Positions 42,777 to 48,248 of a stretch of 53,344 nt of DNA are shown in pieces. The stretch comes from Verrucomicrobia subdivision 6 bacterium (GTDB taxonomy: Bacteria > Verrucomicrobiota > Verrucomicrobiia > Methylacidiphilales > Verrucolacustridaceae), in contig CANESK010000003.1 in assembly GCA_947441075.1 (NCBI GenBank), positions 1 to 53,344 of the forward strand. The letters are read 5' to 3'. The position numbers were made by a program, and so were the translations under genes. The notes beneath the pieces are model-generated. The model was not told the origin of the DNA, ran no database searches, and worked only from the letters and a program-made list of their open reading frames with translations. How positions within the stretch are numbered: position 1 is the stretch's first letter; the number at the start of each line of letters is the position of its first letter.

Positions 42777-43082
42777 GTGAAAAGTGGCACGATCGAATTA
42801 CCAACAGAGAGTCCGACGCAGGAGGCTGACTTTTCGGAGGCTTTTGCCAAAGGGTGGCGGGTGCTGGTCTGGAATGATCCGATCAACCTTATGAGCTATG
42901 TGGTTTTCGTATTTCAAAAAGTATTAGGTTTCGATGAGCCCAAGGCGAAGAAGCATATGTTGGAGGTGCATGAGCAGGGTCGGAGCATGGTAGCGATGGA
43001 AACGCGAGAGAAGGCGGAGATGTACTGCCAGCGATTGCAGGAGTTTGGTTTAAAATCGACTTTGGAGGTGGCGCCCGCATGA
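42777..43082 (+). CDS. clpS: ATP-dependent Clp protease adaptor ClpS
   Basis: A protein of 101 residues: a flexible Glu/Thr-rich N-terminus and then the ClpS core WRVLVWNDPINLMSYVVFVF, KKHMLEVHEQGRSMVAMETREKAE and the final GLKSTLEV strand. It delivers N-end-rule substrates to ClpAP. The NDxxN..Y..V and HxxG elements of the N-degron pocket are present. The start is GTG 42777. Its stop overlaps the ATG of the DUF2017 gene. Confidence 0.94.
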   Translation: MKSGTIELPTESPTQEADFSEAFAKGWRVLVWNDPINLMSYVVFVFQKVLGFDEPKAKKHMLEVHEQGRSMVAMETREKAEMYCQRLQEFGLKSTLEVAPA

Positions 43083-43570
43083 GGGTGAGTCAGGAGGGCG
43101 CTGGGGACAGGCAAATTGAGTTTGCGGCTCCTGAGGCGGCACTTTTGCGGCAAGCGTTGCAGAGTACGGCGGAGGCGTATGAGACTGATCCAAGCGAGCT
43201 GGATCCAATGGTGGGGAATGCTTGGTATGGGCAGTCGGGTTTGCGGGAGGCGGGGATTCGTGGGGAGGATGCGGCGCATTGGGTGGCGGGTTTGCACGAG
43301 GCGCGAATGGGGAGAGGAGCGGCGATGAAGAGTTGGCTGAAAACGTTGCCGCCAGTTGGGCAAGCGGGGCGTTGGGTTTTGCCGAAAGACGAAGTGGAAT
43401 CTTTTTTGGCGACGTGCAATGACCATCGTTTGAGGCGGGCGGCCGAGTTCGATTTGGGGGAGGGAGACTTAGAGGTGAGGGCGATGGAAAAGGCCAAAGG
43501 GGACAAAAGGATCGCTTTAGTGGAAATTCATTTCCTAGCTTGGATAATTGAACTCATTCTTCATGAATGA
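43079..43570 (+). CDS. DUF2017-like protein coupled to clpS
   Basis: A protein of 163 residues, helical and acidic, with EAALLRQALQSTAEAYETDP near the N-terminus and LVEIHFLAWIIELILHE at the C-terminus. In Actinobacteria a DUF2017 gene directly follows clpS, and this protein has the same size and position. Its role is unknown, presumably in Clp adaptor function or control. Similarity is judged from pattern and context only. ATG 43079 overlaps the clpS stop. Confidence 0.55.
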   Translation: MRVSQEGAGDRQIEFAAPEAALLRQALQSTAEAYETDPSELDPMVGNAWYGQSGLREAGIRGEDAAHWVAGLHEARMGRGAAMKSWLKTLPPVGQAGRWVLPKDEVESFLATCNDHRLRRAAEFDLGEGDLEVRAMEKAKGDKRIALVEIHFLAWIIELILHE

Positions 43571-43643: not shown

Positions 43644-44918
43644 ATGAAAAAACGTAGCAATGTGATTGTGGTAGGGGCTGGGCCGGCAGGATGTGCCGTG
43701 GCTCGGGCTTATGCTATGGCTGGGCGTTCGGTGGTTTTGCTGGAGGCAGAGGCGGAAGGTAAAAGTCACAAGCGTTTTGCGGGGGAATGGCTTCATCCGC
43801 AAGGGGTGGATGCACTGAAGAAACTTGGATTTGGCTCGATTACGTCGATGCAGGGACGGCCTCGGGGGCGCGGTTTTGTGGTTTATCCTGGGCACGGTGA
43901 ATCTCCTGTAAAACTGGATTACGTGCAGGGTCAACTCGGTTTGGCTTTTCATCACGGAGATTTAGTCGACGAGATGCGTCAGATGGTGGCAACGACAGAT
44001 GGCGTAACTTTTCGCCATGGAGTGAGAGTGGCTTCGGTAGATGATGAGGGGGTTGTTTTGGAGAGTGGGGAAAGGCTGGAGGCAGGAATTGTGGTGGGGG
44101 CGGATGGTCGTTCGAGTGTGGTACGACGAAGTTTACGAGGGACCACTTCGCATAAGCCGATGTCTGCCATGACGGGGATTTTGCTTGAGGGGGTAAAGGC
44201 ACCCTATCCTGATTACGGCCACGTTTTTTTAGGAAAGCCTAGTTTTCTTCTTGGGTATGAGATTGCTCCTTCGGTGGTGCGGATATGTGTAGACGTACCC
44301 CTAAAATATAAAGCAGAGATGAAAGATCCGGAATGGTTGATTGCGGCGACGCGCGAGACCTTGCCTCCCGTTTGGAGACAGCCGTGTGAAGAGCAGATTC
44401 GTGGTGGGCATTTGCGCTGGCAGGCGAATCACTTTTTGGCTCGGGCCGATTATGGGAATGGGCGGCGAGTTTTGATTGGGGATGCGGCGGGTCACACTCA
44501 TCCGCTGACGGCTACGGGGATTACCAATGGGCTGGTCGATGCGATTGAGTTAGTCGAGACGGCCAATTTTCAGGCATTTGCCAAAAGCCGGCGTCGGGCT
44601 TGCCGAGTACCAGAGCTTCTCTCCCGTGCGCTCTATGATTGTTTCTCGAAAGAGGATGCCTTCTCCAATTCGTTACGGCGGGCGGTTGTTTCGCTTTGGC
44701 GCAGTGATGAAAAGGAACGGGAGCGAACGATGGGTCTGCTGATGGGGAATGGCCGTTCTTTCCTTACTTTTGCTGGACCCTTTCTGCGGGCGTTGTTTGG
44801 CGCTTGGAAGGGTCGGGATAAAAGTACCACGGTGGGTGCGGATATTGCTTCGATTGCGAGTTGGATTCGGTTACCGATGGCCTATGCGATGGCGGGTTGG
44901 GTTCGTCCTAAAGCATAA
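43644..44918 (+). CDS. FAD-dependent monooxygenase, squalene epoxidase-like
   Basis: A protein of 424 residues: Rossmann GxGxxG in VIVVGAGPAGCAVARAYA, then FAGEWLHPQGVDALKKLG (the R/K..GE.L.P.G element of squalene epoxidases), the DG motif VVGADGRSSVVRRSL and the GD motif VLIGDAAGHTHPLTATGITN, matching GDAxNMRHPLTGGG. Squalene epoxidase makes 2,3-oxidosqualene using O2 and FAD. Its convergent neighbour encodes an oxidosqualene-cyclase-like enzyme, which supports that role. It could also be a related p-hydroxybenzoate-hydroxylase-type or geranylgeranyl-reductase-type enzyme. A C-terminal hydrophobic region (IASWIRLPMAYAMAGWV) suits membrane association. Confidence 0.72.
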   Translation: MKKRSNVIVVGAGPAGCAVARAYAMAGRSVVLLEAEAEGKSHKRFAGEWLHPQGVDALKKLGFGSITSMQGRPRGRGFVVYPGHGESPVKLDYVQGQLGLAFHHGDLVDEMRQMVATTDGVTFRHGVRVASVDDEGVVLESGERLEAGIVVGADGRSSVVRRSLRGTTSHKPMSAMTGILLEGVKAPYPDYGHVFLGKPSFLLGYEIAPSVVRICVDVPLKYKAEMKDPEWLIAATRETLPPVWRQPCEEQIRGGHLRWQANHFLARADYGNGRRVLIGDAAGHTHPLTATGITNGLVDAIELVETANFQAFAKSRRRACRVPELLSRALYDCFSKEDAFSNSLRRAVVSLWRSDEKERERTMGLLMGNGRSFLTFAGPFLRALFGAWKGRDKSTTVGADIASIASWIRLPMAYAMAGWVRPKA

Positions 44919-44942
44919 ATTCTTCGCGAAAAAATTACTCCC

Positions 44943-44956
44943 CAGAATCGTTTCTG
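44943..44956. other. Short inverted repeat between convergent genes
   Basis: CAGAA (44943-47) and TTCTG (44952-56) form a five-pair stem with a four-base loop between the convergent flavoprotein and cyclase genes. It lacks a clear T-run on either side, so it is at most a weak shared terminator. Confidence 0.2.
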
Positions 44957-44962
44957 AGGAAT

Positions 44963-46906
44963 TTAAGATTGGAGAAACGTAGCGAAGGCTTTGAGGGGGA
45001 AGGCGCGTTTATAGTGGTCGTACCGAATTAAAGTGGTGCGATAAAATAGTCCTGGAATGGGTTGAGGCGGGAAATCTCCATCGGTTTGTTGGGTTTTGAG
45101 AAGAAAATCCAGTCCCCTACTCACGGCAGGATCTTCCTTGGGTCCAGTGGCGAGGAGTGCGATTAGCGCCAGCGCGGTGGGTTCGACCAATCCAACATCA
45201 CTGGGAATCGGTCGACGTTGAAGGCAGGAGTCCGGATGCTCGCCCCATCCACCGTCGGCGAGCTGTTGGGAAAGAAGAAAGTTACGCCCCCGAACGATTC
45301 GAGGGTCATGAATGGGAAGGCCCGCTGCCAAGAGGCCTGGAAGAGTGAAGGAAGTTCCATAATTAAAGCAGATGCCCCAGACCGCCTCCCAAGAGCCGTC
45401 CTGTTTTTGGGTCTTAGTTAAATAACGAACACCGTGCTGAATGGCTCGATCGACCGCGGCGGATTCTATTTCGGGAAACTTTTTTTGCACTAGGGCCAAC
45501 GCCGCAAGAACCGATCCGGTGCACTCGGCGTACGAGTGATCGACCATGATGTCGGCGAAGACGTGGGAGGCGTTGAAGATTTCAATCCAAGAAGGGCCGA
45601 TGACTCGGTCGCAACTGCCCCAACCTCCGTCCCGGTTCTGGTAGCTGAGGATGAAATGCAGTCCGTCGGTTATGATCTTTGCAGAGATGGGCTGAGGAAG
45701 AGAGGGGGTGGCCTCGACAAGGGCGAGGATACTTTCGGCGGTGCAATCGGCAATGGACCAACCATTGCGACGCTCACTGAAAGGCCAACCTCCTTTTCGG
45801 GGAAGGCGATGGTAGCGGTGGGGGGAAGGCAGTTCATCGATCACCTGATTTTCGACAAGATAACGGCAACCGTTTTCGATTCCCTTACGGGGCGCTAAGT
45901 TTGAACCTAAGAGGTTCATTCCTTGTAGGGTAAAAGCGGTGTCCCAGACTTTGGAGGAGGTGAACCCCTGACAGGCGGTGTATGCAGGAAATTGCCAAAG
46001 GTATCGAGGGAGTTCGCGCCAACTGCGATCGAGGAAGGCGGTTTTACCTTCGACGAAATGGGCTAAGGTGTTGTAGCAGGCGTTGACGGGGGCTTGGCGG
46101 GTGAAATCAGACTGTTCGTCCTCGTAGACGATGTGTTCGTAGGTTAGGCGGATGGCCTTTTTGCGCAGAAAGGAAGGGATCCATTTTTCTAGGAAACGAA
46201 CAAGGGGCATGATGAGGCGGACGACAAGGGTTTCTGGGACGATATGGTCGGTAGGGGCAAGATCGGCGCGATGCTTGGGCCAATCGATCGTTTCGAAACC
46301 TTGCGGGTAAAGTTCGGTGCGGAGTTGGAGGAGAATGGGATCAAGAGGAGCTTGCCAACGGCGTCCGTAGAAATAGGCCATAGGGAGATAAACAATTCGG
46401 ACATAGCCAGAGATATTCGCGGGATGGATGGGAATCCATTTTGGCAAAAGATATAGTTCGGGGGGGACTGGGGTGACTCCCTCCCATGAGTAGAGGTTGA
46501 GGATGGAGAGAATAAATTTTCCCCAAGCGGCGGCTTTGATGGGAGTGCCAGAGGTGTGGATCCAGTTGCGGAGGCGGGCGAGTTCAGGGCGTTCCGGTTT
46601 TTCTCCGAGCAGACGAAGGGCGACGTAGGAGATGGCACTGGTAAAGACGGCCCCGCGAACTGATTCTTCGTGCAGGCCGATGGAGCCGTCGGAGATTTGG
46701 GGCTGGAGAAGACCTGCGACAAATCTTGGTCGATCTTTTTCTGAAATGGGTCGCTTGGTGAGGTAGGAGGTGATGACGTAGAGAGGGAGAAGAAAGTTGG
46801 GTCCAGTATAGGGAACGCACCAACTCCCGTCAGCGATTTGGGTGCGCTCGAGAAAACCGAGAAGGCGCCGGGTCGCTTGGGTGACGGAATCGTGGCGAGT
46901 GGTCAT
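44963..46906 (-). CDS. Triterpene cyclase of the oxidosqualene cyclase type
   Basis: A protein of 647 residues with QW repeats (QNRDGGWG 423-430, QKQDGSWE 500-507, QQLADGGWGE 547-556). The initiating-acid motif is DCTAE at 387-391, as in oxidosqualene cyclases (OSC), not the DDTA of squalene-hopene cyclases. Other OSC landmarks are IVYLPMAYFYGRR, SSKVWDTAF, KGGWPFS and VWGICFNYGT. It is ~80 residues shorter than eukaryotic OSCs at the N-terminus. Against human lanosterol synthase the His232 position reads Tyr168, Tyr503 reads Cys432, and the residue two before the DCTAE Asp is Ile385 (Val in lanosterol, Ile in cycloartenol synthases). The product is thus open. It overlaps the PIG-L gene (ATGA). 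Confidence 0.85.
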   Translation of the reverse strand: MTTRHDSVTQATRRLLGFLERTQIADGSWCVPYTGPNFLLPLYVITSYLTKRPISEKDRPRFVAGLLQPQISDGSIGLHEESVRGAVFTSAISYVALRLLGEKPERPELARLRNWIHTSGTPIKAAAWGKFILSILNLYSWEGVTPVPPELYLLPKWIPIHPANISGYVRIVYLPMAYFYGRRWQAPLDPILLQLRTELYPQGFETIDWPKHRADLAPTDHIVPETLVVRLIMPLVRFLEKWIPSFLRKKAIRLTYEHIVYEDEQSDFTRQAPVNACYNTLAHFVEGKTAFLDRSWRELPRYLWQFPAYTACQGFTSSKVWDTAFTLQGMNLLGSNLAPRKGIENGCRYLVENQVIDELPSPHRYHRLPRKGGWPFSERRNGWSIADCTAESILALVEATPSLPQPISAKIITDGLHFILSYQNRDGGWGSCDRVIGPSWIEIFNASHVFADIMVDHSYAECTGSVLAALALVQKKFPEIESAAVDRAIQHGVRYLTKTQKQDGSWEAVWGICFNYGTSFTLPGLLAAGLPIHDPRIVRGRNFLLSQQLADGGWGEHPDSCLQRRPIPSDVGLVEPTALALIALLATGPKEDPAVSRGLDFLLKTQQTDGDFPPQPIPGLFYRTTLIRYDHYKRAFPLKAFATFLQS

Positions 46907-47757
46907 TTCTTGGCGCCTAATTTGGCCAGACGAGCGATTGTTTCTGTGCGAAAGAGATCGAGAATAGAGGAGAGGAACTCGGTAGGAGAAAGTTTTCCCT
47001 GAACGAGGGGGCGAAGATCGAGGGCGAGAACCACCTCCGGGACGGAGTCGGCTTGTGTGGGGTTGGCAAAAGTGGCTTGGGCGTGGCGTCGACCTAGGGC
47101 GGCTCGGTCGTACCGTTTCCCGCCTTCGACCTGAGATTTAAAACAGCGGAGGAGGGATGGTCCTAAGGTTTCGGGAGCGTGGCAGGCGAGGCGGATAATA
47201 TGAGCATGGGGAACCCAATCGAGATCGCCCCATACTTCGCAACCGTAGATCTCTTTGGGTTGAACAGAGGAGGGAAGTTTTTGGAGCGCTTCTAGGCAGG
47301 CGAGGAGAACACCGATATGACTCTCGTGACGATCGGCAGGGTTGTGGAGATAGAGGACTTGGGGACGAGCGGTTTCAAGGATTTTGACGAGATCTGCAAC
47401 GACGGCGGACCGGTCGGTCTGACGGACGGCGGAGCTGGGATGGCCGAGCTGAAGAACGGAGGCGTAGTCTCCGAGATCGGCGGCCTGATGTTGCTCTTTC
47501 TGGCGGAGGGAGATCAGTTCTGAATCGGTGGTTTTGGCGAAGGGACCAGTTCGAGGGGCGCCTGCGCCATCGGTGACCACGACCCCTGAGAACCGGTTGG
47601 TGGGGTGTTGGAAGCAGGTGGCAATTCCAGGGAAAGCGAGGATTTCGAGATCGTCGGCGTGGGCACCGATTCCGAGGTGGGTGGTGGTGGCGAGGTTCGC
47701 GAGGGGATCTTGGCCACGGGGGGCGTAGAAATCGGCGGAGGATTGAGAGAATTTCAT
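46903..47757 (-). CDS. PIG-L/LmbE-type deacetylase
   Basis: A protein of 284 residues from ATG 47757, with the zinc-binding AHADDLEI (H33, D35, D36) and HNPADRHESHIGV. The family removes acetyl groups from GlcNAc-linked lipids or small molecules (PIG-L, MshB, BshB). TDGAGAPRTGPFA and SLRQKEQHQAADLG are also typical. It is between GtrA and the cyclase, overlapping both by ATGA, so all three are co-translated. This suggests an acetamido-sugar-linked lipid, which is inference. Length is normal. Confidence 0.87.
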   Translation of the reverse strand: MKFSQSSADFYAPRGQDPLANLATTTHLGIGAHADDLEILAFPGIATCFQHPTNRFSGVVVTDGAGAPRTGPFAKTTDSELISLRQKEQHQAADLGDYASVLQLGHPSSAVRQTDRSAVVADLVKILETARPQVLYLHNPADRHESHIGVLLACLEALQKLPSSVQPKEIYGCEVWGDLDWVPHAHIIRLACHAPETLGPSLLRCFKSQVEGGKRYDRAALGRRHAQATFANPTQADSVPEVVLALDLRPLVQGKLSPTEFLSSILDLFRTETIARLAKLGAKK

Positions 47758-48248
47758 CGGCGGGAGGTTCCTGTTTTCTGGCGAAAGACCCAAAGGGAAG
47801 CGAAGAGATAATTGAGGAGAGCGCCGGTGGCAACGGCGACGGCATTGAGGGCGGCGGTTTCAATTGGCCGATTGGTTTCTAAAAGGAAAAGAAGAAAGTT
47901 GAGGAGGAGAAGTTGAAAAATAAAGGCAAGGGCGGCGGTGAGGTAGTATTGGCGGAGGAGTTTCCACGAAGGGGGCCAAACCTGGAAGGTCCAGGCGGCA
48001 TTGAGGAGATAGTTGATCCCGCAACAAATGATCCAAGAGAAGAGAGCGGCCCCGGTGGCGGCGCGATGGCCTCCAGGGTCGAGAGAAAGCCAAGAATGCC
48101 CAAAGGAGAGGAGAAGCCAGACGATGAGAGTATTGAGGAGGGTACCCACCCCGCCAACGAGGCCGAAGCGGAGGATGCGGATAATCTCCTTTTGGGGAAG
48201 ACCTGCAGGAAGTCGGGTTTGATGAGGACGGGGCGGATGAGGAATCAC
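47754..48248 (-). CDS. GtrA-family membrane protein
   Basis: A protein of 164 residues with four hydrophobic helices: RILRFGLVGGVGTLLNTLIV (the GtrA signature), then FSWIICCGINYLLNAAWTF, ALAFIFQLLLLNFLLFLL and ATGALLNYLFASLWVF. GtrA proteins move polyprenyl-phosphate-linked sugars across membranes or assist glycosyltransferases. It is the first gene of the GtrA/PIG-L/cyclase operon. The start is GTG 48248, with no better option near; 77 bases separate it from a divergent gene. Confidence 0.85.
   Translation of the reverse strand: MIPHPPRPHQTRLPAGLPQKEIIRILRFGLVGGVGTLLNTLIVWLLLSFGHSWLSLDPGGHRAATGAALFSWIICCGINYLLNAAWTFQVWPPSWKLLRQYYLTAALAFIFQLLLLNFLLFLLETNRPIETAALNAVAVATGALLNYLFASLWVFRQKTGTSRR

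Follow-up and report, generated by a model that had tools for sequence, protein, structure and literature searches.

The locus at positions 43,644-48,248 of the DNA analyzed here (the window: 53,344 nucleotides of contig CANESK010000003.1 from a Verrucomicrobia subdivision 6 bacterium) raises the question of what a bacterial oxidosqualene-type cyclase produces when its gene lies beside those of a squalene-epoxidase-like enzyme, a PIG-L deacetylase and a GtrA protein. The four-gene layout with two ATGA overlaps and a 44-base convergent gap, as described in the initial annotation, was borne out by the open reading frames and by sequence inspection. A squalene-epoxidase-like FAD monooxygenase (SE/SQMO; 43644..44918, plus strand, 424 aa, predicted product 2,3-oxidosqualene) converges on three minus-strand genes, which encode an oxidosqualene cyclase (OSC; 44963..46906, 647 aa), a PIG-L/LmbE-family deacetylase (46903..47757) and, as the first gene of the operon, a GtrA/DPMS-type small membrane protein (47754..48248, 164 aa). 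TCAT at 46903-46906 and 47754-47757 corresponds to the minus-strand ATGA overlaps of PIG-L with the OSC and of GtrA with PIG-L. The PIG-L reading frame as called spans 46903-47793, but the true start is most likely the ATG at 47757, giving 284 aa, since the alignments of several relatives begin only at residues 9-13. The 44 bases separating the convergent stop codons (44919..44962) hold a minus-strand hairpin with a T-tail; a hairpin scan found 4 such sites versus 7.0 expected in shuffles, and the hairpin alone is no evidence.

The Pfam bit scores were 76.3 for squalene epoxidase (cut-off 20.1), 151 and 166 for the N and C domains of SQHop_cyclase, 53 for PIG-L and 63.5 for GtrA_DPMS_TM (cut-off 26.1). 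Compared with one relative (protein identity 95.7-97.6%), dN/dS was 0.035-0.089 across all four genes. Overall, dN/dS ranged over 0.057-0.082 for the OSC and 0.035-0.046 for the SE, where the higher figures stem from a pair close to synonymous saturation; evolution is faster in PIG-L and GtrA than in these two. This purifying selection indicates that all four are real, constrained genes, and together with the genus-wide conservation described below it rules out chance or artefact as the origin of the locus.

Judged by its sequence, the cyclase belongs with the OSCs and not with the squalene-hopene cyclases (SHCs). It scored 549 bits with TIGR03463 (below the strict cut-off of that model, 851, while the TIGR01787 score exceeded its own cut-off) versus 210 bits with the SHC model TIGR01507, and 457 bits against human LSS versus 116 bits against SHC. 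The protein carries the DCTAE acid motif instead of DxDDTA, with D455, C456 and C533 present in 16/16 OSCs of the genus, and the separate SHC of the same genome carries DIDDTA. The branch between OSCs and SHCs had a support of 100 in both a quick tree (76 rows) and a careful tree (34 rows). An AF2 model (pLDDT 92.2) matched human OSC best among PDB entries (1w6k; Z 46.5, rmsd 2.0 Å, 646 aligned residues), with the match to SHC close behind (Z 44.6). SHCs share this fold and the N and C domains, but differ in their DxDDTA acid, their squalene substrate and the lack of an SE, and are 28% identical to the window cyclase. Motif, scores and trees thus rule out an SHC, and, with the fold, uphold the earlier reading of the cyclase as oxidosqualene-type.

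By homology, the flavoprotein is predicted to be a squalene epoxidase. Its best match among solved structures was human squalene monooxygenase (6c6n; E 2.8e-27, next match 1.5e-9). In a quick tree, which had one distant outgroup and gave long-branch warnings, it grouped with OSC-linked SE-like proteins of five loci (L143, L121, L106, L113 and L160; SH-aLRT 99), in agreement with its initial designation as SE-like, and this clade includes one SE-OSC fusion and one SE-squalene synthase fusion. SE-like proteins also lie near 31/59 OSCs outside the genus.

The most distinctive property of the cyclase lies at its active site. When lanosterol is formed, deprotonation is believed to fall to a dyad of 232H and 503Y (human numbering), and a comparison of lanosterol, lanostadienol and parkeol synthases showed both residues to be invariant (PMC9236903). 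The window cyclase lacks this protosteryl dyad: Y232 and C503 were found in 16/16 OSCs of the genus, whereas H232/Y503 was found in 58/58 other bacterial OSCs. These counts derive from 79 loci representing the best 80 of 116 relatives, from which six partial loci (L097, L098, L100, L117, L132 and L135) were left out of the residue alignment, and more distant OSCs, such as those of Methylococcales, fall outside the 58. Searches of two Bacteroidota orders (16 and 399 genomes) later added 26 OSC rows, nine of them in genomes already counted, with H232 in 24/24 where readable and Y503 in 26/26. The genus-wide Tyr/Cys replacement of the His232/Tyr503 dyad is new here. Of 100 columns with 95% or higher conservation among the other OSCs (again from the best 80 of 116 relatives), 10 carry a genus-fixed residue unseen elsewhere, including S230, Y232, F381, T382 and C503. 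Enrichment of these changes in the active site gave P values of 0.009 and 0.051 with a broad and a strict version, respectively, of an informally compiled residue list. Residue-to-product rules rest on few enzymes. With the sterol-deprotonating pair gone from the cyclase, the label "sterol-type" first given to it is probably wrong for the product.

The position of the genus among OSCs depended on the tree. The quick tree, which omitted four further rows of the genus (L083, L084, L089 and L094), placed it near the base of the OSCs, whereas the careful tree nested it with OSCs of Myxococcota and Verrucomicrobia (100/97); a basal placement was not rejected (p 0.236). The groups compared in the AU tests, here and below, were chosen with a tree already in view. 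Identity of the window OSC to OSCs outside the genus was 31-43% (among the best 80 of 116 relatives). The genus enzymes share DCTAE, C533 and an often linked squalene epoxidase with the known lanosterol and cycloartenol synthases of Methylococcales, Myxococcota and Bacteroidota (PMC4919349), but H232, Y503, W230 and N697 of the latter are all replaced, and the genus OSC is set apart by its own deep clade and the PIG-L/GtrA operon. The only plant OSC in the alignment, TwOSC1 (8j5z), likewise combines Y232 with a non-Tyr residue at 503, although this is W503 rather than C503. It is 34% identical, and a joint clade with the genus was rejected (AU p 0.0016), so the change at 232 and 503 arose separately. 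The TwOSC1 product is, we assume, a non-sterol triterpenoid. An arborane-type triterpenol synthase from Eudoraea, a marine member of the Flavobacteriaceae, is another bacterial OSC, reported to form a pentacyclic non-sterol triterpenol (Banta et al. 2017).

Bacterial sterol-type cyclases, described as rare in the initial annotation, are less so than supposed: Wei et al. 2016 report OSCs in 34 genomes from five phyla (PMC4919349). Their set has one verrucomicrobial OSC (Verrucomicrobiaceae bacterium) and OSCs from freshwater metagenomes, and sequences of this clade may therefore already be included. Among the matches listed, literature titles and abstract openings reported no OSC from subdivision 6 Verrucomicrobia.

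An OSC sequence was present in 20/20 other genomes of the genus examined (as a partial gene at a contig end in G003, G007, G008, G009, G013 and G019), which rules out a recent transfer into a single genome. Gene order was conserved wherever contigs permitted, with one exception, OSC and PIG-L being adjacent in 16/16 and PIG-L and GtrA in 13/13 testable contigs, so the synteny extends beyond one genome, as had been anticipated. The flanking genes are as syntenic as the four-gene block, however, and gene order alone thus says little about a joint pathway. In 57 relatives outside the genus no match reached the level of an OSC, the top score being 191 bits at 30-31% identity. Six OSC-less relatives were compared around clpS, which was present in 6/6, with DUF2017 in five by one search and in all six by another; the 13.6-15 kb retrieved around it gave no match to any of the four genes, indicating that the block arrived or assembled beside clpS in this genus. 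Gene absences in the genus rest on drafts that are 63-96% complete.

HpnC, an HpnD-HpnE fusion and the SHC lie together in a separate hopanoid locus on contig C16 of the same genome, and PF00494 was found in 21/21 genomes of the genus, this one included. The sterol-desaturase family PF04116 was found in 0/21 of these drafts and P450 in 1/21. By comparison, PF04116 was present in 41/50 genomes with other OSCs (39 above the cut-off), which are mostly larger than the genus drafts and represent 50 of the 58 loci (L102, L108, L111, L119, L124, L146, L152 and L156 were omitted).

Taken together, we favor as the probable explanation a genus-specific oxidosqualene pathway leading to a non-sterol, 3-hydroxylated triterpenoid. 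Squalene would be made by HpnC and the HpnD-HpnE fusion at the hopanoid locus, and the SE-like flavoprotein, judging by its family, its linkage and the fusions in relatives, would use O2 to convert it to 2,3-oxidosqualene. In the OSC, the acid site of Asp455, Cys456 and Cys533 would protonate this epoxide, and cyclization would follow. Because the dyad and its neighbors are replaced, the cation would presumably end not as lanosterol, cycloartenol or parkeol but as another tetra- or pentacyclic triterpenol. The absence or near absence of P450 and sterol desaturase, the two tailoring families tested, suggests that no demethylation to true sterols would follow and that the alcohol would be used largely unmodified, presumably in membranes beside hopanoids. 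GtrA and PIG-L share the OSC operon and could possibly act on the lipid.

Ordinary bacterial sterol synthesis, in which the OSC yields cycloartenol or a similar protosterol despite its altered residues, seems unlikely to us. It would fit Ile at position 453, which is found in bacterial cycloartenol synthases (PMC4919349), the retention of F444, W387, W581 and F696, and the nesting of the genus among sterol-type myxobacterial and verrucomicrobial OSCs in the careful tree. What weighs against it is the loss of H232 and Y503 throughout the genus while all 58 others (among the best 80 of 116 relatives) keep both, together with the replacement of W230, N697 and the cycloartenol-type Y381/H449. The missing sterol desaturase points the same way, yet some OSC bacteria are listed with no further sterol genes in Wei et al. 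2016 (PMC4919349). More improbable still is that the cyclase has squalene as its substrate, as an SHC does, while the flavoprotein does another job, such as isoprenoid side-chain reduction. The flavoprotein did score 72 bits with a geranylgeranyl reductase (GGR) subfamily model (cut-off 158.8), close to its SE score of 76, and in Myxococcota a homologue of GGR has sterols as substrates (PMC12004948); but a Pfam scan found no GGR catalytic domain in it, a search of the genome gave no second strong SE-like gene (next match 17 bits), and the cyclase has DCTAE rather than DxDDTA beside a separate SHC. We consider such a scheme very improbable.

The initial suggestion of an amino-sugar-decorated or membrane-flipped triterpenoid would make the four genes one pathway, the triterpenol being GlcNAc-glycosylated, deacetylated by PIG-L and flipped by GtrA. 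The ATGA coupling and the constant adjacency of these genes agree with this, as does the AHxDDxE plus HxxH motif of PIG-L, which we take to be the Zn site; it is intact in the window protein (AHADDLE) and present in 9/9 genus sequences inspected. The motif is common to the PIG-L/LmbE deacetylases BshB, MshB and PIG-L, but the window protein differs from these in belonging to a verrucomicrobial family often found near NagB-like proteins, and a PDB sequence search at E 0.01 returned no match. This family occurs in 27/57 OSC-less relatives outside the genus (weakly in one, G073), with a NagB-like isomerase within 1.4 kb in 10/20 of their PIG-L loci. Around 59 OSC loci from outside the genus no PIG-L or GtrA turned up, and no glycosyltransferase was among the 17 window proteins scanned. 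The equal synteny of the flanks and the faster evolution of PIG-L and GtrA also speak against a shared role, as does the PIG-L of G011, which looks broken, with an internal deletion and an altered frame in a stretch free of Ns, although this may be an assembly error in a draft of 550 contigs and 72% completeness. The apparent loss of PIG-L and GtrA in G002 was dropped as evidence, a run of Ns there making loss and assembly gap indistinguishable. The proposed decoration thus lacks support, and we regard the four-gene pathway as quite unlikely.

Bacterial OSCs are generally taken to be sterol makers, and as such are invoked in arguments on eukaryote origins and fossil steranes. If the non-sterol reading is true, bacteria too converted sterol cyclases into non-sterol triterpene cyclases, keeping the starting chemistry and dropping the terminating dyad. 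A bolder version, which is speculative and which we hold to be rather doubtful, is that a non-sterol OSC resembling that of plants, perhaps of the arborane-type pentacyclic kind, arose independently in planktonic Verrucomicrobia of lakes. These would then be an unrecognized freshwater origin of triterpenoid biomarkers that are oxygenated at C-3 and whose source in sediments is disputed, and PIG-L and GtrA might attach an amino-sugar head group and move it. Sediments predating flowering plants contain isoarborinol derivatives, often of ambiguous source (PMC10646143). The lake-dwelling genus described here is a candidate producer of a 3-hydroxy triterpenoid.

The domain models assigned the four proteins of the locus to the squalene epoxidase (SE, 43644-44918, forward strand), SQHop cyclase (44963-46906, reverse strand), PIG-L (46903-47757, reverse strand) and GtrA (47754-48248, reverse strand) families. 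The sequence bore out the four open reading frames, the two ATGA overlaps and the 44-base convergent gap described in the initial annotation, and the PIG-L start is probably at 47757 rather than at 47793. Comparison with a 97% relative gave dN/dS values of 0.035 for SE, 0.057 for the cyclase, 0.089 for PIG-L, 0.081 for GtrA and 0.056 for the flanking Obg-like gene; with a 79% relative the values ranked in a similar order, although the synonymous sites were near saturation.

Judged by its sequence, the cyclase is an oxidosqualene cyclase (OSC) and not a squalene-hopene cyclase (SHC). It scored 549 bits with the OSC model, which is under that model's strict cut-off, versus 210 bits with the SHC model, and 457 bits against human lanosterol synthase versus 116 bits against SHC. 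These scores, together with the retained DCTAE motif and C533, rule out an SHC identity. The nearest fold to its AlphaFold model (pLDDT 92.2) was human OSC (Z 46.5, rmsd 2.0 Å, 646 residues), to which the SHC fold came close (Z 44.6). The oxidosqualene-type cyclase initially proposed is supported by the model scores, the conserved residues and the nearest fold.

One study (PMC9236903) reports that every lanosterol, lanostadienol or parkeol synthase it compared carries His232 and Tyr503 (human numbering), two residues believed to take the proton from the last cation on the way to lanosterol. Each of the 16 complete or almost complete OSCs of the genus has Tyr232/Cys503, while His232/Tyr503 was present in 58 of 58 other bacterial OSCs, these being nearer relatives drawn from the best 80 of 116. 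A further 26 OSC rows from two Bacteroidota orders, 9 of them from genomes already counted, had His232 in 24 of the 24 read and Tyr503 in all 26. At ten of 100 well-conserved columns (230, 232, 336, 381, 382, 503, 504, 579, 590 and 654) the genus invariably carries a residue that occurs in none of the other OSCs; six of these ten (P 0.009), or four by a stricter list (P 0.051), belong to what we take to be the cavity residues. The one plant OSC in the set resembles the genus in having Tyr232 and a residue other than Tyr at 503; a clade joining the two was rejected (AU p 0.0016), indicating that this likeness is convergent.

OSCs with His232/Tyr503 were also found in four other verrucomicrobial-titled loci (L114, L121, L143 and L148), and among 387 genomes spread across the phylum the one holding the window scored 545 bits with the OSC model and all others 278 bits or less. 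A careful 34-row tree nested the genus together with OSCs of Myxococcota and Verrucomicrobia (100/97), and a quick 76-row tree placed it near the base of the OSCs; neither the basal place (p 0.236) nor a clade of the genus, L121 and L143 (p 0.323) was rejected. The OSC of L148, on a contig titled Akkermansiaceae, was sister to that of a Chitinophagales MAG (100), reflecting transfer or a binning error. The OSC of a complete genome titled Glaciecola amylolytica (L161, CP034120.1) grouped with that of Fluviicola. The same genome (G499) turned up when the order of the Fluviicola genome was searched, and it seems to belong to that Bacteroidota order under a wrong label.

The flavoprotein likely acts as an SE, as suggested by two single-frame fusions: an SE domain joined to an OSC (1133 aa) on an Aestuariivita-titled MAG contig (L160:7591-10989, forward strand), and SE-like and squalene synthase domains (1150 aa) directly upstream of an OSC in a Polyangiaceae MAG (L106:5457-8906, forward strand). 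Of 59 other OSC loci, many of them shortened by contig ends, 31 have an SE-like protein nearby, and the flavoprotein groups with five of these proteins, the two fused ones of L160 and L106 among them (99 SH-aLRT, in a tree with long-branch warnings). Counting against this role, SE and geranylgeranyl reductase models score similarly. The L160 OSC forms a long branch and has residues M98, Y230, A381 and F697.

The window's genome is a 1.73 Mb draft. Among the loci with 97% OSC identity, L083-L085 bear the title 'Verrucomicrobia subdivision 6 bacterium' and L097 and L100, from one genome, the title 'uncultured Verrucomicrobia bacterium'; BACL9, Lanier and Kiruna occur in titles of other genus records, and from record titles most sampling sites appear to be lakes. 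Two genus contigs titled 'Akkermansia muciniphila' (L087) and 'Candidatus Paceibacterota' (L089) look wrongly labelled. OSC sequence was present in all 20 other genus genomes examined, as partial genes at contig ends in G003, G007, G008, G009, G013 and G019. The OSC adjoins SE in 18 of 19 genomes with testable contigs (G019 fell outside the test), the exception being G008, whose OSC contig continues for 3.7 kb without SE. In G008 (L117; contigs C16 and C160) the epoxidase stands after DUF2017 on a contig other than the OSC's, through rearrangement or misassembly. The survey of gene order suggested in the initial annotation found the OSC/PIG-L/GtrA synteny genus-wide, beyond the window's genome, with PIG-L next to the OSC in 16 of 16 testable contigs and GtrA next to PIG-L in 13 of 13. 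The flanks, comprising clpS, DUF2017 and the Obg-like gene (assigned by eye) to one side and genes for a MORN protein and a 526-aa protein to the other, are equally kept, so that synteny alone leaves a shared function unproven. The DUF2017 gene (42777-43570) directly follows clpS with a 4-base overlap, a pair also found in OSC-less relatives. In G011 (L073:4058-4706), PIG-L has an internal deletion and a frame change, with Ns absent.

Squalene/phytoene synthase family genes occur in 21 of 21 genus genomes. A distinct SHC is encoded in the window's genome together with HpnC, a weak HpnG-like protein and, beside HpnC and SHC, a 775-aa HpnD-HpnE fusion (L167:6527-8854, forward strand, contig C16). 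Another PF00494 gene (L169, contig C1) lies beside prenyl diphosphate synthase-like and weak CruF-like genes. A P450 was found in one of the 21 genomes (G015, listed at 5% contamination) and the sterol-desaturase family PF04116 in none, giving no sign of sterol demethylation within the two families tested. Of 50 genomes that carry other OSCs, 41 had PF04116, 39 of these with scores above the cut-off; this is a contrast rather than proof, since the family is broad and those genomes are mostly larger.

PIG-L was matched in 48 of 78 genomes searched (21/21 in the genus, 27/57 outside). Around 20 fetched homologues from outside the genus (37-49% identity), neither GtrA nor SE was found by profile, nor an OSC by BLAST; a NagB-like (Glucosamine_iso) cluster member, its family called on three representatives, lay within 1.4 kb of PIG-L in 10 of the 20. 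These neighbourhoods point to soluble amino-sugar metabolism as the usual work of the family. The PIG-L motif is intact in the genus, and it seems improbable that the enzyme was recruited to act on the triterpenoid lipid. In G074, a NagB-like domain is fused to a second PIG-L domain (L205:6896-8848, reverse strand), adjoining the PIG-L homologue.

The cyclase is a new variant of bacterial OSC. Its product, a membrane role and any head group are inferences; the locus represents a constrained, genus-wide two-enzyme oxidosqualene pathway, whose cyclase has probably been rewired away from sterols.
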